Source: Cornus controversa
Lineage: Eukaryota > Streptophyta > Magnoliopsida > Cornales > Cornaceae
Length of the DNA stretch: 64,000 bases
Reading direction: 5' to 3'
NCBI GenBank assembly: GCA_026545225.1
Contig: CM048845.1
Location: forward strand, 100,126,033 to 100,190,032
Made by a program: the position numbers and the translations under genes. The notes beneath the pieces are model-generated. The model was not told the origin of the DNA. It was given only the letters and a program-made list of their open reading frames with translations, and made no database searches. Positions 3,178 to 48,473 of the stretch are shown piece after piece (the stretch's first letter is position 1; every line of letters starts with the position of its first letter).

Positions 3178-3250
3178 CGACACACACATATATATATATA
3201 ATTCATGCATTAATGTAGAAAATATAAAAAAGCCCAGAAAGGTCCTCCTC
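2321..3250 (-). promoter_or_regulatory. Upstream region of the zinc-finger gene with GA/CT tract, CACGTG box and (TC)n(TA)n
   Basis: Upstream of the ATG on the minus strand. A dense CT tract on the plus strand at about 2803-2845 reads as a GAGA-type tract on the gene strand, a frequent plant core-promoter or 5'UTR feature. A palindromic CACGTG (G-box/ABRE core) lies at 2924-2929, about 600 bp upstream of the ATG. A compound (TC)n(TA)n microsatellite occupies about 3112-3172. Whether a short upstream open frame beginning with ATG near 2771 lies in the transcript is unknown. The element calls are direct sequence matches; regulatory activity is inferred. Confidence 0.4.
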
Positions 3251-6428: not shown

Positions 6429-6460
<32 letters not shown>

Positions 6461-8890: not shown

Positions 8891-9590
8891 GCTGCTGTCT
8901 TTAAATAAAATTTAAGTGTGTGTGTTAGAGGAGTGGGTAAACACATAGGGTTCTAGGGACCGCCATTTTAACCAACTTAAAGTATACAACAACTAGTATA
9001 AACAGGTTGTATATGAATCATTTTAATAACAAAAGCATCTCTTTTAATGGAAAGCATGAAGATGAAGTGCTTGGCTTCAGTGGGTTCTTTGAGTCTAAAT
9101 GAAAATGATAGAAAGCATAACAGTCATATATATATATATTCAAGAACATATTCCATAGTGCATTACTGTTTGTGCAGATTAAAAGCTTTAAAACCTCTTT
9201 AGTGGACATCAAACTTTTTGACTGTCCAAATTAGAGCCACTTTCTAATAACAATATATGATAATGACATCACACTTTGTCATGACTCATGACTGGTGTAC
9301 TGACTGACATATTCAAGCTTGGGATGACTATTATGTTTGGATTTAATTCAGAAATGAAAAGACGAGGAGGCAGAAAACAATTAGATTATTTAAACTAATT
9401 GGGAATGGTATTATTATCAGATTATAACCATTTGTTTTCTGCCATATAGATATTGCTTAAACAAAAGAATTGGAAGATTTCTATAATGAACATCCACAAT
9501 AGGGAAAAAAAAAAAAAAAAAAAAAAACGAGAGTGTTCAAATTACATAATATAATAATGCCTAATCAGCAATCTATTTATCTGTAAATAA
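8891..9590. other. Intergenic spacer with poly-A tract
   Basis: No gene recognised. A run of about 23 A residues lies near 9506-9528. The right part grades into the expected 3'UTR of the minus-strand ELM2-SANT gene. Confidence 0.5.
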
Positions 9591-9905
9591 TCTCGTATCC
9601 GCAAATAAGATCCCCAATAAAGAGAGATTATTGTGGCGCTTACCGTAAGGGTGGAAAGAGTTGCACAATGAGGAGACACCATATGACAACTCAAGATCTG
9701 TAAACCATCTTCAGAAGCACTATCTTACAGTAAAAGGAAAATCTTCAACTAACTTTTTCGAATGTACAAAGGAAAGGGACTTCCCTACTCTCTAACATGA
9801 GCAAAATCCATGGTTGATTCACCTGGGGAGCAAAAGCCACTTTTCCCGGGCAATGCTTCCACGACTGAGACTATGTTGGATGCAATATAAAATGACCAAG
9901 CCACA

Positions 9906-21600: not shown

Positions 21601-22470
21601 CCACCTCCTACCACCCATTCTTCTTTTCCCGTTCAGTCTTTTCCTTGTCACTTATCTCGTAAGACTCGAGTAGCTACTGATGGTGTAGCCTGTGATGTTT
21701 CTGATGCTCTATTCTCTATAGACGATGATGTTCTATCATTTCTTACGACCACCCACGTTCCTTCTATGATTGTGGATCCTCCTCCTTCTCGTTTCCCCAA
21801 ACGTACTCATAAGTCCATTTAGTTACCATGATACTTCTTGGGTATTGAGGTAGCCTTTTCACCTAAGGGTTATCTTCTTTCTTAGTCTAAGTACACAGCG
21901 AACATCCTTCAACGAGCTGTCTTACGGATACTCAGACAGTTGATAGTCCTATTGAGCTTAATGATCGCTATGCTCCTCCAAATGGTATTCCTTTACCTGA
22001 TCCCACATTGTATCAGACTATTGTTGGTAGCTTAATCTATCCCACTATTACTCGCCCCGACATTGCATATGTTGTCCACATTATTAGTCAATTCATTGCC
22101 TCCCCCTCTACAGTTCATTAGGTCATTGTTCTTCGCATTCTGTGTTATCTTCGGGATACTCTCTGTCAGAGTCCTTTATTTCCATCAACGTCCTCTTTGG
22201 AGCTTTGTGCATACTCTAATGCTGATTGGGCTGGTGATTCGACTGATCTTAACTCTACCACAGGTTTTTGTATCTTCTTGGGTGACTCTCTCATTTCTTG
22301 AAAGAGCAAGAAACAGAAAGTTGTCTCTCAATTTTCTATAGAAGCTAAGTACCGTGCTATGACATCTACTACAAATGAGGTTATGTGGTTGCGTTGATTA
22401 TTAGCAGATATGGGTGTCACTTTTTCTACTCCCACTTCTCTTTACTGCAATAATAAGAGTGCTATTTGAC
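18699..22470 (+). mobile_element. Degenerate Copia retrotransposon with most of RT deleted
   Basis: Plus-strand Ty1/Copia relic in canonical order. A short 5' LTR (about 18699-18869) is followed by a primer-site-like TGGTGTCAGAG near 18872. Gag lies at 19136-19822 in three frames, with a zinc-knuckle remnant (YKQKGHWKTQC) near 19870-19905. Protease at 20206-20496 keeps the DSGASHH active site. Integrase follows: zinc-binding remnant near 20720-20760, then core with IHSDVWDP near 20812, SFIDDY near 20876, and HNGIAERKHR near 21105. The frame resumes at 21840 with the RT end (YFLGIEVA-like), and RNase H with an ADWAG-type motif continues to about 22466. The RT body with its YVDD box is missing between about 21830 and 21840. 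No 3' LTR was found. Many stops. Confidence 0.88.
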
Positions 22471-23461
22471 CAGTGTTACCTTTTAACCAATCATTGGTAT
22501 GTAGTATGTACTATTATGAACTAATACCACAATTTCTTTATTTTTAGGATGGAGATTTTTTTTCCCACAATCATAAATGTCAATTTTTTTTCACTTCTTA
22601 TTCTCTCTCTCTTTTATTTTAATTTATTACAGTAATTTTATGAAATTAATGTCTGTATTTTATATTTTTTATTATATTTTTAACGAATAATGACATTCTA
22701 TTTGAATTTTGATTCATCGCGAAATTCTTGGGCTTCTTTAGAATTCCAAGTTTTTAAAACAAGTATTTAATACATTGTTCCTTTTTAAAATTACAAAACT
22801 ACCCAATTAAAGTAGTGTTAGTTATGATAAGTTTGCAAAAAGTAAATTGGCTTTAAACATTGAGAGACAAGAATTTTGAAACATCCAAAAATGAAAAGAT
22901 GGCCAATAATTTTGGAACAGGGGGAGTTCACTATTACTACACTTTTATTTTTCAGCTTAGTGCTTACTGCCTTGTTACACGGTTAGTTATTATGTTAGTC
23001 CAAAAAAAAAGTTACTTTATCATGAGCAATGTGCTTCCCATTAAATAAATTCCTAACTCTGTTTACAGAAATGTCACGTCTTGCATTAGGAAGCTGAATA
23101 ATGCTATTTGGACTTATTGTGAGTTTGATTATAGTTAATTTTGGCCGTTATATAGGATTAAATGCAAACCCATATCCTCTCCGGTACAGGAAAGGTCTGA
23201 TGTATAATCAGATAAGACCCATCACATAATAGTGCCAATTACCAGGATTGGTTGGTACACCGAACCTCTGCAATGCAGGAGATGATGATTTTAATACGAT
23301 TAAATGATATGATAGCAATGCATGTATGTACTTCGTACATAAGATGAGATTCTTGGTGAGTATAGCAACCACTACAATTGCAAATATGGTTTTTTTAGTG
23401 TCATTGGCCAATTGGAGCCAAACTGAAGTTTGTTAAGATTCGGACAATCATAAACTCCAAT
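22471..23461. other. Intergenic DNA without recognised features
   Basis: AT-rich sequence following the truncated Copia relic. No domain, LTR or terminal inverted repeat was recognised. Confidence 0.5.
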
Positions 23462-23545
23462 TTTGATAAAGGAGGGGAAGAGCTATAAATGACTATAGAT
23501 GGTCTTTTAACTCTTATAGTTCTCACAGATTCAACCTCTGTAGTA
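23462..23545 (-). pseudogene. Scrap of an NLR LRR-tail (first part)
   Basis: About 80 bp resemble the region around 40435-40510 of NLR2, including GGGGAAG...TGGATGACTGTAGATG-like sequence (here with TAAATGACTATAGATGGTC). Too short and mutated to code. Its neighbour segment in NLR2 is found 2.2 kb away at 25700-25935. Confidence 0.55.
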
Positions 23546-23617
23546 TTGAGAATCCGCTAATTGAAAAAATATAAAAATAAAACGAGCCTTCAAAATTTAG
23601 ATATTTGCACCTAGATC

Positions 23618-24166
23618 TAGGGGTGCAACTTAGTCGATCAATTCGAACCCAACTGAAGTTCAGTCTGATTTTTAACGAACTCAAACAACTGTTTTTACAA
23701 TTTCGGTTGGACCTAAGTTGAAAATTTTCAACTTAAATCCAATTAGGGTTGGGTTTGAGTTAAGATCCTATCAACCCAAGTCCAACCCGAACTCGAATCC
23801 TAGGATGTACTTATCGATATATTTAATTTTTTAATTGTGAATTAGTTATGGTTGTTTCTTTTAACCTTTACAATAATTATGTGTAGTGGTAGATGATTTG
23901 CATTCCAACCACATAAAAAAATGATAAAACAATCTATAAGTTTCATAACTTGTATGATAAAATCAGAGTGGTAATTCGAATTATACCCCGAAATATCAGC
24001 CCGCGTTGCAATACCGAATTCAATCTGAACAAAAATATTTAATAATGGGTAGGGTTAGGGTTGGTTAGATTGGGTTGAAGGTCGGGTTATGGTTGAACAT
24101 GTTATATGTCGTGTTCAATTCAAGTTGTACCTCCAACCAGTCCAACTTAGCTGTTTTGCACCCGTA
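23618..24166. mobile_element. hAT-type MITE, family H1 copy a (549 bp)
   Basis: Termini TAGGGGTGCAACTT... and ...TTTTGCACCCGTA form imperfect inverted repeats. Flanking 8-bp target duplications are CCTAGATC (23610-23617) and CCTGGATC (24167-24174), one mismatch. The interior matches the other H1 copies (rich in CCAACCC / GGGTTGG). No coding capacity. The 8-bp TSD and TIR type point to the hAT superfamily. Confidence 0.75.
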
Positions 24167-24174
24167 CCTGGATC

Positions 24175-25159
24175 TATTCCATGCATGCATAGGATAATTT
24201 AATTGAGATTTTTTTATTCTTTGTTTTTATTGCAGAGGGAATTAGAAAGAAGGGAAGACAAAAAAAAAGAAGAGAAAACAAAGATAAGCACCAATAAAGG
24301 TGACTCAACTACATGGCAAAGTGATAATTATGATATTAAGCATAAGAACTAAATGGTTTATAGTGCCCATTATATGGATGGTTCATTGAGGATAGAGACA
24401 GTAAGTCCCTATTTCTGACAATTTCCTTTTTTCTTTTTTCTTTTTTTCTGGTAGATTAATTATTAGTATGTACTATGTACCCATTATATCTTACTCAGGT
24501 TTTCTTTAATAAAAAAATTGAAAATTAGGTATTGAATGTTTGAAGAGATGAAATATTAAGTAATAATTATAAAGTGAAAATTTTCTTTGATATATATATA
24601 TATATTTGAATTTTATGTTACTAGTGTTTAGTGATGGGTGAAGGTCACTCACTTAAAATTTTACCATATTATTTGAGGTGACACTTATTTTTGTAAATGG
24701 TATTCATATTGCATAATCAAATGTAAATAGTTGAATAAACACTTATAATTCATTCGAAACTAACTACTAACAATACCTTCAATTTCTTTACTTTTGTATA
24801 CAACATCCTTATTGTAAGTAGTTATCTATTATTAATAACTTGGTAACTTCATTTGTGACCATCATGCATTCATGTGTGTTTTTTTTTTCATTGCAAAGGC
24901 GCAAGGACAAGTTTTCAAAGGTAGAATAGAGGCACAAAATCAAGTAAGTAAGAGGCATAAAATCAATTCAAATCTTGAAGCAATACAAAGAAAATGAAGA
25001 GCACGCTTTAGATCTGTCTAAAGAAGTGCCAAACAAGTTCCAGGACGGACATCACCAAGGGATAGAGGCAACAATAGGAGTGACCCAAAGGTCAGGCCAT
25101 ATCTACTTTTTTTTTTGGCTTCCCTTTTTCTCTCAGCCTTCTCTTTAGCTTTCTCTCTC
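24175..25159. other. Spacer, AT-rich, no gene seen
   Basis: Purine-rich stretch at 24230-24300 and a TA run near 24592-24604. No coding or transposon signature was recognised. Confidence 0.45.
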
Positions 25160-25162
25160 TAA

Positions 25163-25374
25163 GGCCCTGTTTGGATTGACTTTTGAAAAGCGGCTTTCGG
25201 CTTTTCAAGCTCAAAAGTCGTTTTGGAGAGTGTTTGGATTGGTGAGGCGGAAGAACTTCGGAGTCCAAAAAGAGCGTTTAAAGGAAGCTGGGGGGTACCA
25301 ACTTCCTGATTTAGCTTCTGCTTCTCTTTTTCTTCTGCGTAAAAGCTGAAGCAAAAGCTCTGCCAAACAGGGCC
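25163..25374. mobile_element. Tourist/PIF-like MITE (212 bp)
   Basis: Terminal inverted repeats GGCCCTGTTTGG and CCAAACAGGGCC are perfect over 12 bp. They are flanked by a 3-bp TAA on both sides (25160-25162 and 25375-25377), the target preference of PIF/Harbinger elements. The interior forms a hairpin-prone AAAAGC/GCTTTT-rich sequence. Non-coding. Confidence 0.85.
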
Positions 25375-25699
25375 TAAGTTCTCTTCACAAATTTTTTTCT
25401 TCTCCCCGCTTCCCTCCATGAGAGCGGGGAGGCACAACTTCATTTTCCAACGGGATCAATAAATATGGCATGCCAAGTGCTTCTCATGCCGTTTTTTCCT
25501 TTTCTTTTGACTAGATCTTCTGATTTGTTTGTTCAATGTATTATGGGTGGATCTAGTATTTTGTGTTTGTTGGGTTTTGATCCTATCTAGATCTGATCTG
25601 ATTTTGGGTTGGATTGTTGCTTTCATCTTGTTCAAATTTGGTCTCAACTACATCTAATTTTGTGATAAACTTGGTTTTGTCGACGACTGCTGGTTGCGA

Positions 25700-25935
25700 C
25701 TCTGGAGCATTCATATGTGTTGAATGCCTTGCAAGTACACTCAAACTTTCTTTCCTGCCAATATCATCGGTAGTAGTAGTACTACTTCTGCATCTTTTGT
25801 TATTTCTTCCATTACATCACAGTCACCAATGCTTAAAAATTGAAGGTTTGGCACGCTAAATTAGCACATCTTAGATGATTCAAAACCTTGCAACCTGCTA
25901 TTAAGACATCCGAAAGATATAGTTTAGGAAGTTTT
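25700..25935 (-). pseudogene. Scrap of an NLR LRR-tail (second part)
   Basis: Similar to 40495-40700 of NLR2: the CTTGCAA(G/A)TACACTCAAACTT motif, TTCTTCCATT, AGGTTTGGCA and ATTCAAAACCTTGCAA landmarks occur in the same order. Frames are broken. Together with 23462-23545 it seems to be one NLR tail split by later insertions. Confidence 0.65.
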
Positions 25936-31620: not shown

Positions 31621-32074
31621 GGTCTACCTTGTATTCCGCTTCTCAGTTTGGTCTCTGGTTTTCACTTTAATATGGAACTGAAAATTTGACCAATATTACA
31701 ATCTCTTGGAATTCAATATGAATTTGGACCCATCCACGTGAATCACAAAAACCACAACACTATCAAACGTTAAGAAAAACGCAAAAATAACTTTTTGACT
31801 AATATTCGCAAATCTGTGTGCCAGAATATGAAAAGGGTAGAAAATGCCGCAGAAAACTGTGCTTATTCCCCGTGAGCTACGCTGGTATGAAGATGCCTGT
31901 CCGCTCATCGTGTAAATCAATCATATGATTTAAAATGCCTTTTGTAAAATTGTTATTTACGGTCTAAATTTACTTTATATAACAATCACCAGTACAAGTG
32001 CATGACCATTTTCTTGTTTATCTTGTTTATCGGCCGCGGAGTGTATGTGTATGTATATATATATATATATATAT
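31621..32074. other. Spacer between H1 copy b and the duplicated flank
   Basis: No gene. Resembles 26410-26510 in part (GATAGAAACAT before, and GTGCT(C/T)ATTCC...GCGCTGGCATGAA-like sequence near 31840-31900), so it belongs to another local duplication. A TA run lies near 32057-32073. Confidence 0.45.
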
Positions 32075-33575
32075 GGCTATCTTTCTGTTTCTGTTATATG
32101 CTTCAATATTCATTGCGTAATCAATGTCGATAAATTATTCCATAGAGAGTGGAGATTAAGAAAAAGAAATTTATAAACAAAAAATGCAATGGGATAGAAA
32201 TAATTAATTAATTCACAACAGACAGTACGTTGACAAGAACGGGAATTGAAAAGATGGAAAAAATAATTAGGACTACATCACATACAAGTATACAACATAT
32301 ATATGAAATAATGTTGTTTTAATATGTAGTTAAGGGTAAAAAAGAAACTTTGGCCGAAGATGAAAGAATTCTCATAGTCTAATTAGTAGTTCCAAGAGAC
32401 ATTTTATAAGTTGCCTTGGGGAATGAATTTGCAGTAAACTTAGGGAAAATTAAATTTTGGTGATCAAAATTAAAAAAAATTGTTTTAGAGTGATCTTAAA
32501 GTCAATAAAAGGTAAATAGTTATTAATCTTGAAAAATAATTATGAGTAACCATTTAATTTTAATATCCAAAATACCCTCCATTTTATTTAGAGATTCATA
32601 ATAGGGCTGTAACTTGGTGGCTTAGAGGTACAATTCAGTCTCAACCTTACATATCAAATGTTCAACCCTAAACCGACTTCTAACCCCAACTATTCAACCC
32701 TAGCTCAACACATCCTTAAATTTTTAAACTCGGGTTTGCAACACGGGCTGAGATTTCGGATTAAAAAGTCTGATTAATTCGGGTTATCTATATCACTAAT
32801 TTCTCCATTGAAAATTTAAAGTGATATTTAATAAGTTTCATATTAGATTACTCCTAAATACAAAAAAGAAAAAAAATTAAGAACTTAATGCAAATTTCTA
32901 AAAAAAATTTAGAAAATTAATTATACAAAGTGTTAACATACAATAAATTAAGATTTAAATAAAGGAAGTTGAAAAAAAAAAGGATATCATTATTTGAATA
33001 TTATATATAATGTTTTAAAAATAAAAATATGTATAAAAATAATATTACAATTCGGGTTCGGATTGGGTTTAGGTTGTTGGCACCTCAACTCAAGTCCATC
33101 CCTAATTAAGTTCAGGTTAAGATTTTTCAACTCAAGGTCAACCCTAATTGTAAAAATAGTTCCCCAAACCCGTAAAAAATCGAGTTAGGCTTGAGTTGGG
33201 TTTGGGTTGCCCAACCCAAGTTGCACTCCTAATTCACAATTCCTTCATGATCCTTTTTAGTAATATCAAAGTTTCAAAAGACATAAAATGATTCTAGAAA
33301 GAAAGTATATATATACATATAAAGAGAGAGAGCATCTCTCTTTATATATATATTTAGACATATATGTTCCTCTTATAATTAATGCATAGGATTTTAGGGT
33401 TCCAAAGATGTGGCAAGATTTATCGATTGAGATGAATTGACTATTTGAAACATGATATAAGAAGAGGAAGATTCAGAGGAGAAGTTGATAATAAGCCGTC
33501 ATGGAGATGTAGACAATAGGTTTAGTCTATTCCTATCCTCTAATATTCTTTATTAACAATTAATTGCACCAAAAT
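32075..33575. repeat. Duplicated segment S1 (paralogue of 38078-39585)
   Basis: About 1.5 kb collinear with S2, from TTTCTGTTTCTGTT...ATGCTTCAATATTCATT to TCTATTCCTATCCTC...AATTGCACC. It includes the left half of a long-TIR element (starting 32443) and H1 copy c. The first 400 bp also match 60120-60870. It stops at about 33575, next to the Gypsy LTR. Non-coding. Confidence 0.85.
32602..33231. mobile_element. hAT-type MITE, family H1 copy c (630 bp)
   Basis: Termini TAGGGCTGTAACTTGG and CCAAGTTGCACTCCTA. The 8-bp target duplication is ATTCATAA (32594-32601) and ATTCACAA (33232-33239). It is the same insertion as copy d, carried by the S1/S2 duplication, because both have the same flanks. Non-coding. 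Confidence 0.85.
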
Positions 33576-33592
33576 TAAGAATTTTTTTTTTT

Positions 33593-35452
33593 TGAAACAA
33601 TCTTATTACTTATTTCTCTTTATTAGCTAATCTTTTTGATTAACTAATTATTGCGAAATCGTACACATTGTATAATGTCTAACTATAGAAGCGCACACAC
33701 AAAATAACTATATACTTTTCACCCAATGGCCATAACAAACGGATTGTGCACATCCAATGAAATCATTATGAAATTTCCGTAAGTTAGTTTCAGACTTTTA
33801 AAATTTATTAAATGTTTTCAACATTTAATAAATTAACACCATCATTAATGTGTTTATCATACACATTAATTATCAAATCAGGTTTCATCACTTAATTCTC
33901 TTTCAAAATTAATTGTCTCAACATAAATAGATTTATTATGGTGAAATATACAATTCTGGATTTTTTCATAATTTTTAGAAACATTAATATTTTTCTCTAA
34001 TTTCCCCCAACTTAAATACTATAAACTAAGCACTTCGTCCATCATCTACTTACACTAAACTTGCGTAAATCAATATATAAGAATCTTATCCTATATAACT
34101 TTATGTATTTTACATAAATAAGCTATCAATGTATACTCATACTGATTTCTAACTAGTAGCATATTTACTATCCAACTAAAGCATATGACAATATTCAAAT
34201 ATCTATCTATGTACATACACAGAAGCAATCTATATAAATTTAAGCTTGGGAAGAATTATATAAATTCATGGATCATACTAAATTAAACTTTCTAACCATC
34301 TTAACTAAATCCAAAATAATATATATGCAAGAGTAAGGGCAAGATTAACTTGCCTTGGTTTCCGTGAATATCCACACTGCCGATCGGGGATTCAAAGCCC
34401 AATGAAAAGACTCAATTTTAAATAAGATTTAAGATTGGCCTATTTCCAAATTCCAGCCCAGCCCAGCCCAAAAGTGAAGTCCACACACAACCCACTTCCT
34501 TTTAAATGATACTGGGCCTATTTAAATTTCGGCCCAGTCCATCATCAAGCCTAATTCCAAACCAAACCATATTCCATTTGCAACCCAGTTCCTAAGTCCA
34601 TTACTTTCATCATATACCAAACCCAATTCAAAAGCCCAAATATACATTAGACCAACATATTTAATTCTTAGCCCACTTGCCCAAGCATACACTTATGAAT
34701 TCTTTTGGATTGACCCATTTAATTTGCCCAACCCAATGTAATTCATCAAAATGGCAGTCCAACCCAATGGCAGCCCACATCACAAGGCCCAAATCAGCAT
34801 TAAACCAAACAACCAAATGGACCACAATTACTGCCCACCATTGATGCCAAGACCAACCACCATGCTGCCCAAACACTAACACCAAACCCACCTTCATGGT
34901 TTCACCATGACTACCACCATACATCAACCACCCAAAACCATGCAAGCCAAACACCTACCACAGTCGTGAAGACCCAGTTTTCTGTCCACGTCCAGACAAC
35001 CTCATTCACAAAGCCCATTCACTAGCCAACACCACCAAACATGGCAGCCCAAAATAAACCAATTTGAAATTAAACACAACCCAAATTCAGCCCACTAGCT
35101 CCACCTATGGAACCTTCTTGCTGCCACACACCACCATACCCAAGTCCTCCACCATGAACCCGAAACTTCACTTGGAACCAACCACAACCAGCGGCAGTCT
35201 GCGCTCGAACCATCAACCATCACCATGAATAGACCCACGCTAGCGCGCAAGGAAGACCCATAACAGCCTACCCTTGAGCCGAACCAGTCTTCACCACCAT
35301 TCTCGGCTTCTCCTTCTCTCTCTCTAGATTTTTCCTCTCCCTCTCTCTACAGCTTTTTCTCTCTCTTCATTTCTATCTAGCTTTCTTTTCCTAAACATAT
35401 AAACACTATTCTAATACTCCACTACACATATAGCATATAAAACAAATCATTA

Positions 35453-35484
<32 letters not shown>

Positions 35485-35512
35485 TTGGCAATAAAATTCG
35501 GAGTATTACATT
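33593..35512 (-). mobile_element. Probable Gypsy 3' LTR remnant
   Basis: On the minus strand the LTR would begin at 35512 with TGTAATACTCCGAATTTT, the typical start of a plant Ty3/Gypsy LTR. It is preceded by CTTAAAAGAGTAGAA (35513-35527), in the position of a polypurine tract. The rest of the internal region is missing, and the left boundary (about 33593) is set only by the end of the S1 duplication. The segment has a CCCA-rich part (34430-35120) and CT-rich part (35310-35380). The minus-strand open frame at 34661-34954 falls inside and is not considered a gene. Confidence 0.5.
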
Positions 35513-35672
35513 CTACTCTTTTAAGAAATTTCATCCGAAATTTGCGCACTCGATTCAATCCACAATTCATTCATGATGAACAATTTTTTTTTTTTTACAA
35601 TACATTCTTACAAACATGGAAGATACCCAAAAGGTATTGACTGTTGATTATCACTGTCAAACTTAGAGAAAT

Positions 35673-37688
35673 TCAAAAGTACTGGATCATCCTATCCATA
35701 CTAACAAAAGACTCTTCTGGATTTTCAAAATTTTTTAGTTCAACTGGATTTCTGAACCGCTTATTCTCTTCTAGATTCACAAAATTTTCCAGCTCAAGTG
35801 GATTTACCCTCTGTCCTTGGTCATCCAACATGGTATTTATACAACCAATTGGGTTACCAAGTTGTGATAACATGCTCCCTTCTTTGCACTGAACCCAATG
35901 CTGATCTGGTGGATTCAGAGACGAACTTTCTCCAAATTCCCAATTAAGGTTAGATACCATACTTGCATCCTCATACTGAAGCTGTTGCTGATATTGCGGG
36001 TTCAAAGCAAAATTTCCTCCTAACACCTTAGGATTCGTCATCACATTTACATCTTCATATCGAACCCGTTGTTGATATTGCGGGTTCAAAGAAAAATTAT
36101 CTCCTAACACCTCGTTAGGATTCACCATTACATTCACACCTCCCCGTGATTGATATTGGTTATGTGAAGAACTTCCCCCAAATGTCTCATTAGGGTTCGG
36201 TATCATGTTAACACCTCCCCAGTTTTGATATTGGGGTTGTGAAGATGAACTCTCCCCTAACATCCAATTAGGGTTTGCATTCGTAGAGGCACCAGAGAAA
36301 TCCCGAGTTCTTGTTTGTTTGAGGTAAGTCACCTCAGCTTGTAGTAAGGCACACCGCTGCTCAAGATTAATAATTCTTCCTTTAATCTCCCAATCTGCAG
36401 GGTAGAGAACACAATACAGAAAACAAATCTTAATTGTTTCATCAAATAAGCTATCATAACTGAACTTTAAACGACAAAACAGCTCATGATCTTCCATACC
36501 TGAAATTTTGAATCTAGATTTCCTCAACTCGCTTATTGCATAATTCCATCGTCGGGGAGTTGTCATGCTAGCCATGGCTCGTCCAATGGTAATGAGCGCG
36601 AGTGGCAAACCGGCGCATTCTTTGCAAACATCTTGTGCCAGCTTCTCTATTTCAGGGTTAGAATTGAGGATATCTTCTCCCACCTTCTCTTTAAACAAAT
36701 CCCAGGCTTGCTGCCATGCCAAACATTCCACTTTAATATTCTCCTTAGCTTTCATTTGCAAGCACACTTGCTCAGATCGGGTGGTGAATACTACCTTGGC
36801 TTTATTTTGATTGTCTGCAAGTATTGGAACTCCCACTTCAACAAGATCAATCCACTTCCATATGTCATCCAAAAGTAGCACAAAATTCTTCATTTTCAAG
36901 TCGTGAAAGATTGTTGCTTGTTTCTGATATTTGGTTTTATCCTTCCATATGTCATCTGGATATCCTAGCGTCTTCCCAATTTTATCTTGAACGCTCTCGG
37001 TAGTACTTAGATCTTGTGACACCGTAACCCATATCACCTTGGGGAATCCCCCAAGTGACTGATTATTTGCAAGCTCATTGTTGAGTTTCTTCAAGAGGGT
37101 TGTCTTTCCAACACCTCCCGTCCCGTATATTCCGATGATCCCCACTCCGTCATCTGCAAATAGACTCAAGAGCTTGTGAAAATTCGAATCCAAGCCCACA
37201 GTCGTCCCAAGAGGAATTTCTTGGGCATGTGCTGGGGCTAATGGTAATGGTAGAGTCACATCCCTGAAATTATCTGCAGTATTGCTCATATCAGAGACAT
37301 CTTGTAACTTCTGATGTGCTTTCTTTCCGAGTTTATAGGTAGACCAGCATTTTCGGGGACATATTTTGAAACTCTCTCTCTGGATCTCTTCTTCACCCTG
37401 CCGGAGAACATCGTTCACGTCCCTCTCCAGTTCTTCGACTCCTTGAACCCAGCCATCCACATGTTCCGTGCGTCGACGACGATGCAGTGGTTGCCTCTCA
37501 CCAGTTTCAACTTGTGTCTTCACATCATTCCTTTTTCTTTTCAATCTTCCCATTTCGTTCCTCAATGAGTCCATATTATCTTTGAAATGGCGGATATGGT
37601 AGGTTGTGTTTTTGATGCAATCATATAATCGGGTTGCAACATCCAAGATTGAACTCGCAAACTCCATTGCTTTGAAGAGACCAAGCAT
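35673..37688 (-). CDS. NLR1: CC-NB-ARC protein with LRRs replaced by a novel repeat domain (671 aa)
   Basis: RPS5-like intracellular immune receptor with an abnormal C terminus. The coiled coil covers about residues 20-130 (WVQGVEELE region). The NB-ARC has P-loop GGVGKTT 191-197, kinase 2 LLLDDIW 271-277, RNBS-B VVFTTR 299-304, GLPL 360-363 and RNBS-D CFLYC 422-426. Similarity to NLR2 stops at DWEI (432-435); the rest of ARC2 with its MHD motif and all LRRs are absent. Residues 436-671 are unrelated: a heptad-spaced segment (L443, L450, L457), then five repeats of type NPN-x-G-x-SS-x-QYQ at about 472-607, and two acidic NP(L/V)EL(E/K)NF repeats at about 629-660. The frame is open and uninterrupted. 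The paralogue starts at the equivalent of Met8 (37667), which may be the true start. Either a fusion gene or an NLR with an integrated domain; expression is unknown. Confidence 0.85.
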   Translation of the reverse strand: MLGLFKAMEFASSILDVATRLYDCIKNTTYHIRHFKDNMDSLRNEMGRLKRKRNDVKTQVETGERQPLHRRRRTEHVDGWVQGVEELERDVNDVLRQGEEEIQRESFKICPRKCWSTYKLGKKAHQKLQDVSDMSNTADNFRDVTLPLPLAPAHAQEIPLGTTVGLDSNFHKLLSLFADDGVGIIGIYGTGGVGKTTLLKKLNNELANNQSLGGFPKVIWVTVSQDLSTTESVQDKIGKTLGYPDDIWKDKTKYQKQATIFHDLKMKNFVLLLDDIWKWIDLVEVGVPILADNQNKAKVVFTTRSEQVCLQMKAKENIKVECLAWQQAWDLFKEKVGEDILNSNPEIEKLAQDVCKECAGLPLALITIGRAMASMTTPRRWNYAISELRKSRFKISGMEDHELFCRLKFSYDSLFDETIKICFLYCVLYPADWEIKGRIINLEQRCALLQAEVTYLKQTRTRDFSGASTNANPNWMLGESSSSQPQYQNWGGVNMIPNPNETFGGSSSHNQYQSRGGVNVMVNPNEVLGDNFSLNPQYQQRVRYEDVNVMTNPKVLGGNFALNPQYQQQLQYEDASMVSNLNWEFGESSSLNPPDQHWVQCKEGSMLSQLGNPIGCINTMLDDQGQRVNPLELENFVNLEENKRFRNPVELKNFENPEESFVSMDRMIQYF

Positions 37689-38050
37689 GATTACAAAGCA
37701 ATACTGAATGGTAGCTGGAGAGACTGGGAAGAAAAAGAGAAGAGTAGCAAATAAAATTTCAAGATGGGTTTGTTTCTAGCTTGTTGACATTAATTGGGTC
37801 TTAGTTAATTTACATGCCCATGCTCATCATCATGTAGAAAAAGTCACAAGGCTATGAATGTAAGGTAGTCAGTCCTGAAGGTCCATGGGCGCAACTTCCT
37901 AGAAATTACGGAGTACTACTTCTCTACTTTCTAGGAATGACTGATTTGAGAGCGCGTCTACAAAAATAATTTACTATGTATCGTAAAAGTCATCAACCAC
38001 TCTGTATCGCAAATAGACATACAAAAAGTGTGTCGGCCGGCCAAGCACGA

Positions 38051-38077: not shown

Positions 38078-38083
<6 letters not shown>

Positions 38084-38457
38084 ACTATTTTTCTGTTTCT
38101 GTTTTATGCTTCAATATTCATTGCATAATAAATGTCTATAAATTACTCCATAGAGAGTGGATATTAAGAAAAAGAAATTTATAAACAAAAAATGCAATGA
38201 GATAGAAATAATTAATTAATTCACAACAGACAGTACGTTGACAAGAACGGGAATTGAAAAAGTAGAAAAAATAATTAGGAATACATCACATACAACATCA
38301 ACATATATATGAAATAATGTTGTTTTAATATGTACAGTAGGTAGTTAAGAGTAAAAAATATACTTTGACCAACTATGAAAGAATTCTCATAGTCCAATTA
38401 GTAGTTCTAAGAGACATTTTATAAGTTCCCTTGGGGAAGGAATTTGTAGTAAACTTA

Positions 38458-39829
38458 GGGAAAATTAGATTTTTGTGACTAAAATTAAAAAAATTTGCTT
38501 TCCAGTAGTAATCTTAAAGTCAATAAAAGGTAAATAGTTACTAATTTTGAAAAATAATTGTCAATGAGTAACCATTTAACTTTAATATCCAAAATACTCT
38601 TTCTTTTATTTAGAGATTCACAATAGGGCTGCAACTTGGCGGCTTACAGCTACAACTCGGTCTCAACCTTATATATCAAATGTTCAACTCTAATTCAACC
38701 CTAACCCGACTTCCAACCCCGAGTACTCAACTCTATCACATTCCATCCTTAAATTTTTAAACTCAAGTTTGCAACCCGGGTTGAGATTTCAAGTTAAAAA
38801 GTCTGCTTAATTCGGGTTATCTATATCACCAATTTCTCGTTGAAAATTTAAAGTGATCTTTAATAAGTATCATATTAGATTATTCTTAAACATACAAAAA
38901 AAAATAATAACTTAATACAAATTTCTAAAAAATTATTAAAAAAATTTAGAAAATTAATTATCCAAAGTGTTAACATACAATAAATTAAAATTTAAATAAA
39001 AGAAGTTGAAAAGAAAAAGGATATCATAATTTGAATATTATATATAATATTTTTAAAATAAAAATATGTATAAAAATAATATTACAATTAGAGTTCGGGT
39101 TCGGCTCGGGTTCTTGGCACCTCATCCCAAGTCCAACCCTAATTAAGTTCGGGTTAAGGTTTTTCAACTCAAACTCAACCCTAATTGTAAAAATAGTTGC
39201 CCAAATCCGTAAAAAATCGAGTTGGACTCGAGTTAGGTTTGGGTTGTCCAACCCAAGTTGTACCCCTAATTCACAATTCCTTCTTCATCTTTTCTAGTCT
39301 CACTCTTAAATATCAAAGCTTCAAAAGACATAAAAGAATTCTAGAAAGAAAGTATATATATATATATATATTTAGACATATAGGTTCCTCTTACAATTAA
39401 TGCATAGGATTTTAGGGTTCCAAAGATGTGGTAAGAGTTATCGATTGAGATGAATTGCCTATTTGAAACATGATATAAGAAGAGGAAGATTCAGATGAGA
39501 AGTTGATAATAAGCCGTCATATGGCTGTAGACAATAGGTTTAGTCTATTCCTATCCTCCAATATTCTTTATTAATAATTAATTGCACCCAAAGTATGATA
39601 TTTTTTTTTAAATTCATCGAATTCTTTGAAATCTCTGATATTTGGAGTTGAATAAAATGAAGAAATGATAGGATCTATGGAGAGAATGGAGAGTATTTTG
39701 GGTTTTAAAATTAAATGGTCACTCTTAGCAAAAAAATTTTAACTATGGTCACTATTCACCTTTTATTATATTTAAGGTCATTAAAAAGTAATATTTTTTT
39801 AATTTTGGTCACTAAAATTTAATTTTCCC
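38458..39829. mobile_element. Long-TIR DNA element (1372 bp) hosting H1 copy d
   Basis: Inverted repeats of about 140 bp. The left starts GGGAAAATTAGATTTTTGTG (38458) and the right ends with the inverse of GGGAAAATTAAATTTTAGTG (39829). Flanks TAAACTTA (38450-38457) and TAAAGTTA (39830-39837) are an 8-bp target duplication with one mismatch. The paralogous site at 60878-60885 (TAAGCTAA) has a single copy and no element. No transposase seen. The same left half occurs in S1 from 32443, truncated. Confidence 0.85.
38624..39268. mobile_element. hAT-type MITE, family H1 copy d (645 bp)
   Basis: Termini TAGGGCTGCAACTTGG and CCAAGTTGTACCCCTA. The perfect 8-bp target duplication ATTCACAA lies at 38616-38623 and 39269-39276. 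It is nested inside the long-TIR element. Short open frames rich in Asn and Pro inside it are artefacts of the CCAACCC-type repeats. Confidence 0.9.
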
Positions 39830-40255: not shown

Positions 40256-42346
40256 TCACCATGGGTCATCTTTGAAAAGGGGAAAGAAAACACAGTAAGT
40301 TTCTTCATTCTCCCATTCTAACTTATCCCACCACTCTCTATCACATTGAATTGATCGAAGAGTGTCTTTGCCGCTATTGGAGTCAAATGGAAGTTTCTTA
40401 AGCTTTGGACACAACCCCACTTTAACTTGGATCAGAGAGGGGAAGGACAGTGGATGACTGTAGATGCTCTTTAACTCTGCTAGTCCAATCAGAGTCAATG
40501 TTTTTAGCCTTGCAAATACACTCAAACTTCCTTCCTCACCAACACCACTACCACTACTGCAATCCCCATCTTTTACTACTTCTTCCATTGCATCACACCA
40601 CCAAATTCCCAACGTTTGAAGGTTTGGCATGCTACTTAGCCATGTTAGACCCTTCAAAACCTTGCACCCTGTGATTAATACTTCCTGAAGGTTATGAAAG
40701 CTTCCCTCATACATGCTCTTTATCTGTGTTTCCTCCCATCTCATCATCCCATCCATTGACAACTCCTCTAAATAGTCACATTTCTTAATATCAAGAAATT
40801 CTAGTCTCTTCATGTTGTTCTTCTGTAGAGAAGAAGACAGTTGCAGTTGACTTGACCCTTTGCATTGTTGGATGCTTAAACCAAATGTGCAACTTTGTAA
40901 CTTTTGCGAACTTAATAATTTTTGAAGTGCGGCCTCAGTTTTCACCGTCAGACTTAAATATTGCAGCTGCTTCAAGCATTCCAATTCATCCAATAACACT
41001 TCATTACCACCAAAGAAGATGCTATCTTCTTCATCTGATGAAATACCAGTACGAAACATCTCCAACCTTTGCAGAATCAAAAGACTAGATATGACACGCG
41101 GCGGGATTTTATCAAGTTTTTCCATCTGATTCAGATATAAATACTTCAATGTTACCAGTGACTTAAACTCAATTGGCAACTCCGTTATCCCTGTCATCGA
41201 CAGATCAAGATGTTGCAGAGAAGGCAAATTGAAAAAGCTTGCTGGTAACACAGTTAAATCATCGTTATGTGACAGGTCTAAAACTTTCAGACAAGGCATA
41301 AATTGAAAGAAACTATCAGAAATGTTCCTTAAACCATAATTACAACTAAGATTTAAAGTCAATAGATTGGGGCATGTAGGAGTTTCGCTTAATTCTTCAA
41401 TTGAATTATTCAATAGAAATACTCGTTCAGCCTTCTCCCATTTTGAAATAGGAGGTGCTACTGTCAGCTCAAGATTTCCTCCTTGCACAAAATATTTCTC
41501 CTCCTTCCTCCCACTCTTCCAAATGATCCACAATGCCATGTCCCGAATAACGTCATGCATGTTGAAAAAATTGTATTTTGTGGTATGCAACAACAAGCAT
41601 GCAAGCTTCAACCTACCAATTATATCATATGCCAACTTACAAGCCTCATCGATGTTATCACATTGATCATCAAGAAACCCCTCACTTATCCAGTATTTAA
41701 TGACAACAGGAACTTCAATATCCCAATCTTCTGGGAACAGAGCACAATATAAGAAACAGGTCCTGGTTGTTTCATCAAATAGGTTATCATAACTGAACTT
41801 TAAAAGAGGAAACACATGTTCTTCCATACCTGAAATTTTGAATGTAGATTTCTTCAACATACTTACCGCATAATCCCATTCTTCGGGGGTTCTCTTGCTA
41901 GCCATGGTTCGTCCAATTGTAATAAGCGCCAGTGGCAAACCAGCGCATTCTTTGCAAACATGTTGTGCGAGATTCTCTATTTTAGGATCGGAATTGAGAG
42001 TCGTTTCTCCCACCTTATCTTTAAACAAATCCCAAGCTTCCTGCCATGCCAAACATTCCACTTTAATGTTCTTCTTAGCTTCCATAAGACCGCACACTTC
42101 TTCACATCGGGTGGTGAATACTACTTTGGCCTTGTTTTGATTGTCTGCAAGTAGTGGAACTCCCACTTCAAGAAGATCAAACCGGTTCCATATCTCATCC
42201 AAAAGTAGCACAAATCTCTTCGCTTTCAGGACCCTAAAGATGTCTTCTTTCTTCTCATCTTGGCTTTTATCACTTCTCCATGTGTCTGGAAACCTAGTTT
42301 CTTTCCAATTTTATCTTGAATGCTCTCCACACCACTTACATCTTTC
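40256..42346 (-). pseudogene. NLR2, 3' part: kinase-2 to LRRs of an RPS5-like CC-NB-ARC-LRR gene
   Basis: Together with 47837-48473 this was one NLR of about 900 residues. From 42211 down to the stop at 40256 the frame is open for 651 codons: LLLDEIW kinase 2, KVVFTTR RNBS-B, GLPLALITIG, CFLYCALFPEDW RNBS-D, NMHDVIRDMALWI with an intact MHD. LRRs follow, e.g. MPCLKVLDLSHND...LPSLQHLDLS, ending in a C-terminal LRR typical of RPS5-class receptors. Between 42346 and 42211 the frame continues from the retrotransposon junction (DVSGVESIQDKIG) but shifts by one base near 42288-42294. Two lesions therefore disable it: the Copia insertion and the one-base frameshift. The LRR portion remains intact and could still be transcribed. 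Confidence 0.92.
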
Positions 42347-42821
42347 TGTTGGAATTTAATCCATACTCAACTTGTAGAAATCAAGAATACTGCAATTAAT
42401 TAAAGAAGATTTAATTGACATACCTGGTTGATGATAAAATCCTTAAGATAACCTTTGAGTTTCTGCAAAAGATTCTTAGAGAGCTCTACCCCCTTTCTGA
42501 GAGTTGTCCTTCGATAGGGCTGAATAAGGGTTGTGAAACCCTTATTTATAACAACAACAGGGGGGACGGCTTCTCTACAAATAAAATACCTAAGTCTCCC
42601 TTCCTATCATGGAGACCTAGATATCAACGGTTAGGATTAAATCCTATCAAATAAAGTTGGAAAACCACAATCCAACGATGTAAATATTATACTGCCAATT
42701 AGACCACAATTGACAAGTATAACCCCAACCCATCAAGTAACAATAATTACATTGCAATCCAATTTTAGAAATAATGCATAGAACCACAAAAAATATTTTA
42801 TTTATTTAAAATATTCCAACA
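42347..42821 (-). repeat. 3' LTR of the Copia element in NLR2
   Basis: 475 bp, starting TGTTGGAATTTAATCC and ending AATATTCCAACA (inverted TGTTGGAAT/ATTCCAACA ends). By eye it differs from the other LTR at one visible position (TTAGAGAGC here against TTAGAAAGC near 47495). Contains a 79-codon open frame that appears identically in the other LTR and is not taken as a gene. Confidence 0.95.
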
Positions 42822-44195
42822 ATCTCCCACTTGGTTCATGCACTTTAAGTATTATAAAACGACACTATGGATTGCAACACTTTAGAAAAGTCGAGTGGCC
42901 ACTCATTTTATTTTAGAAAAATACAATTATCGAAACAGATGGGTTGAAACTTTAAAACACTCTCTTCCATAGACTTCCTCAATAGTGGATCATGGATGCG
43001 TAGACAAGTAATATATTAGTCTAAACAGTTCCATAGTCTCAAAACTAATTCCATCTAGGATTTGAGCAAATATAGTGGTTTTTACTGCATTTCATGAGAT
43101 GTGCAAACTGCATGTGGTCTAAACGCATACCTCACTATCCGTCCTGCTTCATACCATCACGGTATGTCACCTGAACATATTACAGCAAACCGCTAACCTT
43201 CTGTCCAGTGTGAGGGTTTACCGATATGGAGCCAATCCCATATCTAGCCCAAGCTATCCTCATGGAATGTGAAACACTCCCACAGGCACTTTAATAATTA
43301 TGTTTGGATTTACCAATGTGGCGCCAATCCCACATCTAATCCAAACACCCTCATGAGTGTAACATCACTCCCAGGCAAACATAATAGCACGTGCATAAAC
43401 TATATATAAATGAAGATAATAATAATGATGCATCAGAACTTCATTTTGCATGCAAATAACTGTCACCAAAAGGCGTAAATAAACTGAAGGAAAATAACTA
43501 TCACCATAAGGTGTAAATAAGCTGAAAGCTAACTGCAATGTAACATGATATAAAACAAATATCAGACGTCATAACACAATGACTCTCGAACACCTATCCG
43601 GATCACGTGCTCCTTAAACATTTTGCAATGTCACAGAAAATGTCATAGGCTTGTGTATGGAGTCCACAACCTTCAAATCCACAATAAAAATTTCTCAGTC
43701 ACATGGCATGATTGGTTGTTTCACAACAACTAACCAACTCTGCATACATAGTGAAATATGTGATAATAGACTTCTTAGAGCTTTTCCATGAAACAGCTCA
43801 TTGAGCTAGCATAAAAATAAATCCAGAAATGAATTTTCTACTACTCGAGCAATTTGCAGAGTCAGCATCGGAATAACCAATTATCTCAAAGTAGTCTAAT
43901 TTCCTATAGATCAACATGAACTCTTTAGTTCTCTGGAGATACCTCAAGACTTTCTTTACTACCTTCGAATAAACAATGTGCAGATTTTACTAAAATTAAC
44001 TTGACTTCTCACAAAATCATTATCGAGACACTTTTATTCTGACAACATATTTCCTTTAACACCTTGAACCTCACTTGGTACACAATATCTTCATCTCAAA
44101 AGTTTTCAATATTTTGTCAATACATGCCTTTTGAGAAAGTCCAAATTTTTCTGTAGTGCATGTATTACATGAATGTCATTACTAACTAACAAAAT

Positions 44196-44207
44196 ATCAT
44201 CAACATA
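44196..44207 (-). other. RT catalytic box YVDD of the Copia element
   Basis: The minus strand reads Tyr-Val-Asp-Asp followed by ILLVSND, the Ty1/Copia reverse-transcriptase signature. The surrounding frame is open only locally, so the enzyme as a whole is not encoded. Confidence 0.85.
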
Positions 44208-44960
44208 TAAGACAAAGATAACAAATTAACTCCCACTGAACTTGAGGTATATGCATTAGATCACGATACTCTTCAGGTTGAAACATGTAAATCACTTCCT
44301 TAATGTCTCAATTGAGGAATATTGTCTAGACATCTATCTAATACAACTCAACATCATTAAGTATAAAAGAAACTACAAAGTTATAGACTCCCACTGAATT
44401 CACACATCCTCAATAAATTTTGCAATGACATGTTTCAACAATTTTCATAGGTTTAGAGGGATAATAAAAATTATAACCGAAAGGTCTCTCAAGATACTCA
44501 ATAAAATGACAAGTGACAGTGTAAGGATCAAGTTTCTTAATATCTGGATTATACAATTTCACCTCTATAAGGCATCCTCACACATGTAAATGTCTGAGAC
44601 TGGGCTTATGGCTCATTCAAAACATTGAGATATGTACTAAAACACTACGATTCACACCCTCCATATCTATAATCTTAAAAAATTGTATTTCTTCTGCATC
44701 TTCTTGACACAGTCAACACATAAATTATAAGAAAAATTAGTATGTCCCAATCTCCTATGTCATAGCACATATTAATTATCTCTAACAAAACACGATTTTA
44801 TCCAGAAGGTATCGAGCCCATAGATAAACAAGAGGCATGTATGATCTCTTTCGAATCAATCCTCAAATATATTCAGGCATGTTAACTTAATTGGGCTAAA
44901 AAATTACCACAATAATTTTCATACATGCATTGTTTCCTTCAACTAAATCTTAAAATTGTG

Positions 44961-45002
44961 ACAGTCTTTCTTTTGATGTCCTTTCATTTTGCAGAACCAA
45001 CA
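44961..45002 (-). other. Gag CCHC zinc knuckle of the Copia element
   Basis: The minus strand encodes C-WF-C-KMKG-H-QKKD-C, an intact CCHC nucleic-acid-binding knuckle of a Copia Gag, in a locally open frame flanked by stops. Confidence 0.85.
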
Positions 45003-45935
45003 TTCATCATTCCTATGATCATGCATTTTTCTTTATCGTTCTACTTTTAACTTTTTAGTTCAGTCAAATTTCCTTTCTTACCGCTTATTTTCTTCTAGAA
45101 AATATTCTTACTGCTATTATTTACGACAAGATGATCTGACTCAATTTTAATTCCCTTGAGTCGCTCTTCCTCAATCACACAAAGTGCTAATAGCTGGTTA
45201 ATATTTTATTTTGTCTCATGTGAATTATAATTCACCTTAAATTTCTCAAAAAGACCTAAACTGAGAATTAATATATCACTATGTGGACTAATAACTCATC
45301 ATCAAATGTGATTCTCTACTCCCTTAAAGTATTAACCAGTTTGCATATCGTATAAATGTGCTCCCTCATTGAACCATTGCCATCATATCTGGCTGACACA
45401 AGTTGTGTCAGATAATAATACTGTAACTGCTTCTTGGTGCCATGAACTACTTCTTAATCAGATCAAGAAGTTTCTTAGCAGTATTAAATACTAGAATACC
45501 ACCCCACAAATCACACCAATAGAAGTACAAATCTACCTTATGGCAATTGTAATACCTTTAGTCCACTTAAAATATAACAACCTTACTACCTCAGAAGATT
45601 CTGTAACCAACATAGAGGGTTTCTCCTTAAAAAGTACAGACTCGTAGTCTAAGAAACCCAACATAATATCAAAACATGTCCCCTAGGTAAGTATAATATG
45701 AACCATCCAGTGGTTCAATCCCTATAAGCTATATCTGAATTGCGGAAGCGTTAATAACCTCAAAACATGTTATATTAAATAACACCACATAAACAACATA
45801 TAAAATAATATGTTACAGCTTTAGGGATTATCACTTTAATTCGTATTTAGAGTTTTAAGCCGAATTTATCAGGATGTTTTACTATGTGCAAAACTTTCCA
45901 CCCTGCGGGAACAGGTAAGATGTCATTTAAAAATC

Positions 45936-46245
45936 ACCTTTGGGCAGAATTTTAAATACATTTACCCCCCAAATCTGCGATTAAATCGCACATAGACCTA
46001 GTTAATTATGCTTGAATTATTGCTAAACACTTCCACTACCTTTGGGCAAGAGGGTTATTTAGTTCTAACCCAAACACTCTCAACTATTCTACTCACTTAT
46101 CCTATATTAAGACACTGATCACCTTTGGGCAGAACTAATGCCCCAATATAGGTAAGTGCACTGTAAGATCTTAATAAGATCAATATATGTCTTTAAAATT
46201 TTCAAAAAATAATAACCTTCATGAGTGAATGTCACCTTTGGGCAG
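45936..46245 (-). repeat. Four copies of ACCTTTGGGCA in the Copia 5' region
   Basis: ACCTTTGGGCA(G/A) occurs at 45936-45947, 46038-46049, 46121-46132 and 46234-46245 (spacings 102, 83, 113 bp). On the element's strand this reads CTGCCCAAAGGT, within the untranslated leader or early gag region. Confidence 0.8.
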
Positions 46246-47361
46246 GCATCACTCACTTTGGATACTACCTTGAAACGACCACTTTACCGGTCCTCCTAAA
46301 CTCCAAGGAAAGACCTAAACTTTAAATTTTCATTTTATTTAGGTTCACAAACTTATTTATTATGCACATAAAATAAATCCAAATTTTATGGAACAAAATA
46401 TGAACATGGATCATAAACAACTTGAATATAAATAAAAGAAATATATTTATATTTATTCATGCACATAGAATCCACTGTTCACAATTTATTGAACAATTAA
46501 ATTAAATTAATTGTTCCCCTTTTATAAAGAAAAAGACAAAACTTATATATATATATATATATTTTTTTTTTTACACATATATATAATTATGTATATATAT
46601 ATACACATATATACAATTGCACACCCACGCACCGGTGGGTTTTTTTTTTTTTTTAAGCCAAAGATGAAAACTTCAAAAAAAAAAAAATCTATCATTTATA
46701 TAGTTACCAAGTCAAAGTTCAAAGGAAAGTCACTAATTGTGATATGCCATGAATGAATGAAACTTGATAATAACCTTTTGACACATGTCCTTTATATCTA
46801 TATATGCTCAGTATATATAAAATCAACAAAACCAAAACAACATATATAATGAGGATATATAAATCAATTCATCATCACGTTAGTAAACTGACATCCTCCT
46901 AATTTGACATTGTTTGGCAATAGACCCACCACCTATCCATGATAAGTAATGGAAAAATACAAACATCCTCATGTATGTGTTTAATGCTATCAAACAAGTA
47001 GCAACATGAATTCATGTATATAAACATGTACTATCCATTAAACACGATTCTATATTCTCGGCAAACTCATAGCTAGCATGGCAATTCACATAATTCATTA
47101 CGAAGCAATACGGTACTACAACTATTCCTAAATAACACAGCAGGAGGTCACTGTAGCAATAAATTCCAGGCGGTAGTAGCCGATAGCTGACTTGGTTTTG
47201 GGTTCAAAAAATGAAACTTTTATACAGTAAGGTTAATTGAAACATAACACGTCCATTCAGAAAAAAACATATGCAAATTAAATCTTTACCTTCTTGATTT
47301 TTACGAGACAAAAAAAAAAAAAAAAAAAAATTCTAACCTTAACCTTGGCTCTGATACCAAT

Positions 47362-47836
47362 TGTTGGAATTTAATCCATACTCAACTTGTAGAAATCAAG
47401 AATACTGCAATTAATTAAAGAAGATTTAATTGACATACCTGGTTGATGATAAAATCCTTAAGATAACCTTTGAGTTTCTGCAAAAGATTCTTAGAAAGCT
47501 CTACCCCCTTTCTGAGAGTTGTCCTTCGATAGGGCTGAATAAGGGTTGTGAAACCCTTATTTATAACAACAACAGGGGGGACGGCTTCTCTACAAATAAA
47601 ATACCTAAGTCTCCCTTCCTATCATGGAGACCTAGATATCAACGGTTAGGATTAAATCCTATCAAATAAAGTTGGAAAACCACAATCCAACGATGTAAAT
47701 ATTATACTGCCAATTAGACCACAATTGACAAGTATAACCCCAACCCATCAAGTAACAATAATTACATTGCAATCCAATTTTAGAAATAATGCATAGAACC
47801 ACAAAAAATATTTTATTTATTTAAAATATTCCAACA
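47362..47836 (-). repeat. 5' LTR of the Copia element in NLR2
   Basis: 475 bp with the same TG...CA ends as the left LTR. It directly abuts the primer-binding site on the inner side and the target duplication CTTTC on the outer side. Confidence 0.95.
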
Positions 47837-48473
47837 CTTTCGACACAACAACCCATATCACCTCATCGAACTCTCCACTCGACTGATTTACAAGCTCATT
47901 GTAGAGTTTCTTCAAGAGGGTTGTCTTTCCAACGCCCCCCATCCCATATATTCCGATTATTCCCACTCCACCATCATCTCTAAGGAGTGTCAAGACCTTG
48001 TCAAAATTTGAATCCAATCCCACAGTCCTCTCAAGAGGAATTTCTTGTGCATGTGTCGGGGCCAATGTTACAGCCACAGTGCTGAAATTTGCTTCACTCC
48101 TGAGAACAGCCACGGCTTGGAGTTTTTTTGATACTTTCTTCCCGAGTTTATGACTAGATCTGCAATTTCTGGGACAAATTTTGAGACATTTTCTCTGGAT
48201 CTCATCATCACCATTCCGGAGAACCACCTCCACTTCACTCTCCAGTTTATCTACTCTTCGAAGCCAGCCATCAACTTGTTGGGTGCGTTGCATTTGTTGC
48301 CTCTCAGCACTTTCAACTTGTCTCTTCACGTCGTTTCTTTGCTCTATCAATTTTTCCTTCTCAGTTCTCAAAGACTTGAGATTATCTTGGAGATGACGAA
48401 TGTAGTTGGTGTCGTTTCTGATGCAATCACATAATCGGGTTGTAACATCCAAGATCGGGCTCACAAATTCCAT
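47837..48473 (-). pseudogene. NLR2, 5' part: coiled coil and P-loop
   Basis: Starts at an ATG encoding MEFVSPILD and stays open for 212 NLR codons before running into the Copia LTR just after WVVVSK. The coiled-coil region (about residues 22-130) contains the WLRRV-type motif of the RPS5 class. An EIPLERTVGLD linker precedes the P-loop GMGGVGKTT at about 177-185. The junction codons continue in phase into 42346 when the element and one target copy are disregarded. The neighbouring paralogue NLR1 shows what follows in an uninterrupted gene. A truncated CC-P-loop protein with a few LTR-encoded residues is possible if transcribed. Confidence 0.92.

Follow-up and report, generated by a model that had tools for sequence, protein, structure and literature searches.

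A stretch of 64,000 nucleotides of the Cornus controversa genome (C1:100126033-100190032, hereafter the window; the genome is 772 Mb in 61 contigs) carries on its minus strand an open frame of 671 codons (35673-37688) in which the front of a disease resistance-type receptor is fused to a repeat-bearing tail. The predicted protein has a coiled coil and an NB-ARC domain (residues 176-412 in Pfam, E 2.8e-58; P-loop, kinase 2 and GLPL by alignment), followed from residue 436 by 236 residues that we assign below to a LOB-domain (LBD/AS2-like) transcription factor. The features of the locus are as follows.

17223-18697 (-): decayed 3' half of a receptor, spanning WHD and LRR (residues ~401-890) and interrupted by stops and frame changes
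23411-25857 (-): two LRR scraps, at 25857-25792 and 23506-23411
32074-33590 (-): second copy of the upstream flank of the fused gene, on the same strand as the first; an old duplication
33591-35510 (-): LTR-like repeat sequence after a purine-rich tract, starting TGTAATACTCCG at 35510 (tentative, by eye)
35584-35596 (-): A13 run close to where similarity to the 3' sequence of sibling LBD copies gives out, most BLAST matches ending near 35591
35673-35693 (-): frame-shifted end of the tail, with a single-base deletion relative to sibling copies near 35693
35673-36380 (-): tail of LBD origin (end of the LOB domain and variable C-terminal region), reading in the native LBD frame as far as about 35693
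35712-35805 (-): two NP(L/V)EL(E/K)NF units, the second common to the C-terminus of the LBD family
35877-36275 (-): five NPN..LG..SS..QYQ units of the LBD C-terminal region, the first three aligned in L059 (see below)
36315-36377 (-): last LOB-domain helix, residues 438-458, with heptad positions I439, L442, C446, L449, V453 and L456 (by eye, and by alignment of L031 to PF03195)
36378-36383 (-): receptor/LBD fusion breakpoint, with 2-3 bp of common letters at the join (by eye)
36381-37688 (-): CC-NB-ARC half, residues 1-435/436, with P-loop, kinase 2, RNBS-B, GLPL and RNBS-D (Pfam NB-ARC and identity to the C5 receptor)
37668-37945 (-): 5' flank and first seven codons common to the C5 receptor gene (83.6% over 280 bp)
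38082-39609 (-): sequence upstream of the fused gene, with a second copy at 32074-33590 (86%, 1565-bp alignment)
40256-48473 (-): neighbouring receptor split by ~5.5 kb, with residues 1-214 at 48473-47832 and residues 225-896 at 42304-40256

The 671-codon frame of the original prediction was confirmed, and so was the claim that the MHD motif and the LRRs are absent from its product: neither WHD nor LRR families matched the fused protein in Pfam at E<=10, whereas the same search of a neighbouring 651-aa frame returned NB-ARC, WHD (9.5e-08) and LRRs. The abrupt divergence that the prediction placed after DWEI (residue 435) is equally clear, with identity to the closest receptor found stopping sharply there. 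Its description of a second NLR in the window as one collinear sister did not hold, however: the piece at 42304-40256 begins at residue ~225 and fits a single receptor split by ~5.5 kb. Both pieces of this neighbour, which leave a gap between residues 214 and 225, keep long open frames.

The closest receptor to the front half of the fused gene is a 948-codon open frame at C5:31849440 (L068), the best among the 97 of 899 candidates that were scored. The two are 81% identical in protein over residues 1-435 and 85.2% identical in DNA over 1584 bp, including ~257 bp 5' of the first start codon, and because this 5' flank is common to both genes the receptor promoter region has probably been kept. 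The fused gene thus resembles RPS2/RPS5-type CC-NB-ARC-LRR receptors in its coiled coil, NB-ARC motifs and 5' flank but differs from them in that WHD, MHD and LRR are gone from residue 436 on.

The decayed half at 18697-17223 overlaps the fused gene by ~60 bp, with 84% identity over 50 bp, and is 75.5% identical to the C5 receptor. As the upstream flank of the fused gene is duplicated, this half is likelier to belong to a second gene copy than to be the lost 3' half of the fused gene. Adjoining it are stretches of a broken Copia-like retroelement (18917-22338 on the plus strand; open stretches, by eye), and the retroelement-like stretch at 33591-35510 has patchy, dispersed matches elsewhere in the genome. 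Further off, an open 517-codon frame at 767-2320 (minus strand) looks by eye like a multi-finger C2H2 zinc-finger protein.

Origin of the repeat tail

The tail is rich in asparagine (12.7%) and glutamine (9.3%), and the five NPN-type repeats reported in it were borne out, with units beginning at residues 472, 498, 523, 552 and 580. At the DNA level, the repeats fall into one family spaced at 84 and 87 nt (D1) and another at 75, 78 and 171 nt (D2), whilst the two NP(L/V)EL(E/K)NF units form a 40-nt repeat of 83% identity. Searches with the tail alone gave nothing usable in Pfam (best TSC22, E 0.21; PF03195 not matched) or in the PDB (best E 0.18), and a comparison with plasmid records gave no match. 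The link to LBD genes rests on sibling copies.

One of these is a copy at C8:62416900 (L059, the same place as L018), in which a single open stretch of 201 codons runs from a LOB domain (Pfam, E 1.8e-22) into the repeats seen here, with 65% identity to the window tail over 110 aa; beyond this stretch the frame changes. Since L059 joins LOB domain and repeats in this way, the tail is the 3' half of a gene for a LOB-domain (LBD/AS2-like) transcription factor and not a new domain. Of the original prediction that an Asn/Gln-rich repeat domain of unusual type stands in place of the LRRs, the presence of foreign coding sequence at that position therefore survives but the novelty does not, the sequence being the back half of an LBD gene.

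A protein search of the genome gave at least 165 matches to the tail at E<=1 (150 of 278 candidates scored), and the 150 matches listed lie at 126 dispersed places. With the window's own match excluded, 129 of 149 contain stops and none of the 20 that are stop-free is longer than 103 residues; all 29 tail copies fetched with their loci (L010-L038) contain stops. After repeats of the same places had been dropped, 38 LBD copies were left for examination, and in 15 of them DNA homology starts within 6 bases of window position 36383. Thirteen of these 15 were translated across the junction point, and in every case the upstream sequence is LOB-like by eye, in one or more frames. Two copies, L012 and L031, were tested in Pfam and both have a LOB domain (PF03195) directly upstream of the tail homology (E 5e-17 and 1.3e-16).

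The breakpoint itself is sharp. Identity to the C5 receptor stops at window position 36380, LBD identity begins within ~3 bases, and the join preserves the reading frame native to each parent. On the LBD side the break lies inside the LOB domain, near position 79-80 of the 99 positions of the PF03195 profile as read from the L031 alignment. Among LOB matches that do not run to the end of the profile, most terminate near positions 47-53 or 88-91 and several at 74-84, and many of these are broken copies. What the fusion retains is the last LOB-domain helix and the variable C-terminal repeats in their native frame; it differs from LBD/AS2-like factors in having lost the CX2CX6CX3C zinc-finger C-block and the GAS block, and in its clipped C-terminus. 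No match to the LOB N-terminal part better than E 0.5 was found by tblastn elsewhere in the window. A three-block LOB domain, with a zipper-like motif responsible for dimerisation, is described in passages of PMC5698300. In the helix kept here, the heptad a/d positions are hydrophobic in five cases of six and cysteine in the sixth, so that hydrophobic heptads are present although the strict LX6LX3LX6L pattern is not (L442, L449, V453, R460).

No near-identical LBD donor was seen in the genome among the matches listed. The nearest other tail copies among them are 60% identical in protein over 185 aa and 70% over 104 aa, or 80% in DNA over 700 bp and 83% over 280; the LBD piece differs by at least 17% from every long match listed and by 18-25% from the 22 copies that were aligned.

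The LBD frame did not natively end at the present stop. Six codons before it, the window copy has lost a single base that sibling copies have, which shifts the frame; bar that deletion the window copy keeps the LBD frame as far as the family's own stop (a continuation followed by eye from the alignment), with one in-frame deletion of 33 bp. The single-base deletion is best placed late, and it damages the tail. Divergence is faster past the present stop than before it (45/148 versus 86/526), a difference that might be taken for selection on the present frame. We rejected that reading once the 3' end had been aligned, for as the native LBD frame runs to the family stop, the excess lies largely in poorly aligning non-coding 3' sequence.

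Coding history of the two halves

Both halves of the fused gene have a coding history, with no stops, in-frame indels and conserved NB-ARC motifs. In the tail, 88 changes were assigned to the window copy, 27 synonymous and 60 non-synonymous as against 23.0 and 60.4 expected without selection, and their codon positions are 31/26/31. One of the 88 is a step to a stop, and a transient one, where 4.6 would be expected; there are no real stops. Siblings show 85 stop steps in 967 changes over 21 rows (L015 being dropped as a near-duplicate of L014), which differs from the window copy at Fisher p 0.007, falling to 0.0007 with the transient step counted as zero. Of three indels inside the frame of the window copy none breaks it, as compared with 30 of 43 in 13 siblings, a tally in which shared events are counted repeatedly.

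For the receptor half, comparison with seven more distant receptors gives an overall omega of 0.99, above their own 0.37-0.86. Divided into motifs and remainder, the values are 0.48 and 1.16 (0.20-0.47 and 0.57-1.62 in the seven), and the fused gene has changed 45 of 204 otherwise invariant positions, whilst each of the seven, left out in turn, has changed 5-42 of 230-267. The list of NB-ARC motifs behind this division was chosen by us. After the split from the C5 sister, on a branch of 0.06 changes per site with net in-frame gaps only, omega is 0.29 in the motifs (13 synonymous, 9 non-synonymous changes) but 2.31 outside them (37667-36384; 7 and 42), as against 0.26 and 0.67 on the sister's own branch. 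Motifs and remainder differ at Fisher p 0.0003, and the remainder departs from neutrality at p 0.037 (two-sided binomial). The excess of amino-acid changes outside the NB-ARC motifs since the C5 sister is a hint of diversifying selection; an omega of 2.31 could reflect such selection on a working gene, or else relaxation, in line with the 45 changes among 204 invariant positions.

The open frame had been read as a sign of selection, and it does point that way. Such selection need not extend to the fusion, however, as it may lie in both parent genes beforehand: both halves were coding for most of their separate histories, which is sufficient to account for an open fused frame, and a coding history that separate parents can explain is therefore not proof of selection on their fusion. 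Nothing was seen that either favours or excludes selection on the fused protein, the history before the fusion being inseparable from what followed. The case is also a warning: when genes fuse in this way, the openness of the frame and the conservation of motifs can both be a legacy of the parents.

Readings of the fusion

The fused gene is real sequence of ordinary origin and unproven function. With the parentage of both halves, the breakpoint, the frame and the single-base deletion that clips the native LBD end all established, we think it probable that the fusion is recent and arose by chance, in a receptor cluster that is decaying and riddled with repeats, and that it has no established immune function. 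A DNA rearrangement would have placed the 3' half of an LBD gene copy in frame behind the first ~435 codons of an RPS2/RPS5-type CC-NB-ARC-LRR gene, presumably by end joining in a receptor cluster filled with insertions, the LBD copy perhaps having been carried there by a retroelement. As it follows the split from the C5 sister, the fusion should be younger than ~0.06 substitutions per site. Its product would comprise a coiled coil, an NB-ARC domain without winged-helix and MHD, the helix by which LBD proteins dimerise and a repeat tail that is probably disordered. An established immune function is not to be expected, we infer, because the parts that hold the NB-ARC off and those that sense effectors are gone; if the protein is expressed, pairing of its helix with LBD-family proteins is its most likely biochemical activity. 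One weak point of this explanation is that a very recent copy-and-paste event would predict a near-identical LBD donor. The omega of 2.31 outside the motifs, if it reflects diversifying selection on a working gene, also tells against it, and the absence of stops from the two halves is compatible with selection acting on the fusion.

In a second reading, the gene encodes a functional NLR whose integrated LBD fragment is a decoy for LBD-acting effectors and whose missing parts are supplied by a partner receptor. The in-frame fusion with 671 open codons and the conserved NB-ARC motifs (omega 0.29) beside a fast-changing remainder (2.31) agree with this, and LBD genes are linked to disease, CsLOB1 for example being activated by a TAL effector (PMC11321762). 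We nevertheless hold it unlikely: WHD, MHD and LRR are absent, the DNA-binding part of the LOB domain has been lost, the amino-acid changes of the tail look neutral (27 synonymous and 60 non-synonymous against 23.0 and 60.4), a frame shift clips the tail end and, among the matches listed, every other tail copy is more than 25 kb from any listed NB-ARC match.

NLRs with integrated domains are well known (PMC5067614, PMC4759884, PMC5819176), and LOB makes one entry, from Pisum sativum, in a table of extra NLR domains (PMC11734081), which also speaks for the decoy. The words 'LOB' and 'lateral organ' are absent from the main texts of PMC4759884, PMC5067614, PMC5819176 and PMC7145615. Like these NLR-IDs, the fused gene has foreign transcription-factor sequence in frame with an NLR, but it differs from them in that LRR and WHD are gone and the LOB domain is only partial. 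The fused gene therefore belongs with the known NLR fusions, and is unusual in the loss of WHD and LRR and in having part of a LOB domain only. It offers a young NLR fusion with a breakpoint placed within a few bases and both parent families identified, at a stage ahead of either its loss or its recruitment as an integrated domain. If it does function, the product would be an NLR with neither WHD nor LRR that bears the dimerisation helix of a transcription factor. Bolder still, and quite unlikely in our view, would be an immune protein in which off-switch and sensor have been exchanged for the LBD helix and repeats, sensing LBD-targeting effectors or LBD partners directly, the LBD source family being one that retroelements have in part spread through the genome.

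The product might instead act as a small regulatory protein that titrates LBD factors by pairing with them through its LBD helix, in which case the receptor half would chiefly have contributed promoter and scaffold. The heptads described above (hydrophobic at five of six a/d positions, Cys at the sixth) and the dimerising role of the zipper-like motif (again from passages of PMC5698300) are in keeping with this, but the helix departs from the strict LX6LX3LX6L pattern (L442, L449, V453, R460) and we consider such a role distinctly improbable. That 36380 marks an assembly chimera is very improbable indeed: the surroundings are dispersed repeats, but every long match listed differs from the LBD piece by at least 17%, so that no identical repeat was seen with which an assembler could have confused it at the join. 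Evolution of a new repeat domain at the NLR locus is ruled out, for the repeats, though real, also follow a LOB domain elsewhere in the genome (L059).

LBD genes and retroelements

Returning to the chance fusion that we favour, carriage of its LBD piece by a retroelement is plausible because LBD genes of a different subfamily, recently multiplied, sit downstream of integrase-like stretches. In three copies (L064, at 2866-3567, L065 and L066; C1:71770250, C3:7717543 and C6:9501028), an LBD gene matched by tblastn over 213-214 aa lies ~2.2-2.4 kb downstream of an integrase-like open stretch identified by eye. The three are 96.9-97.9% identical over more than 6 kb, and at least 19 rows of the LOB search have an identical score of 106.9 bits. 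This LBD gene looks like one multiplied by a Gypsy-type retroelement. Elsewhere, the C-terminal half of an LBD gene (L071, 7868-8257) lies between direct repeats (6354-6746 and 9227-9601, 86% alike), which suggests carriage by an LTR-bounded element.

Other arrangements of LBD genes were also seen. Three of the copies of the multiplied subfamily stand in tandem on C6 (36349538, 36362130 and 36374723), ~12.6 kb apart, and a 263-codon open stretch (L060, 254-1042, minus strand, in reverse-strand coordinates) contains two LOB domains, the second of which nearly repeats the first.
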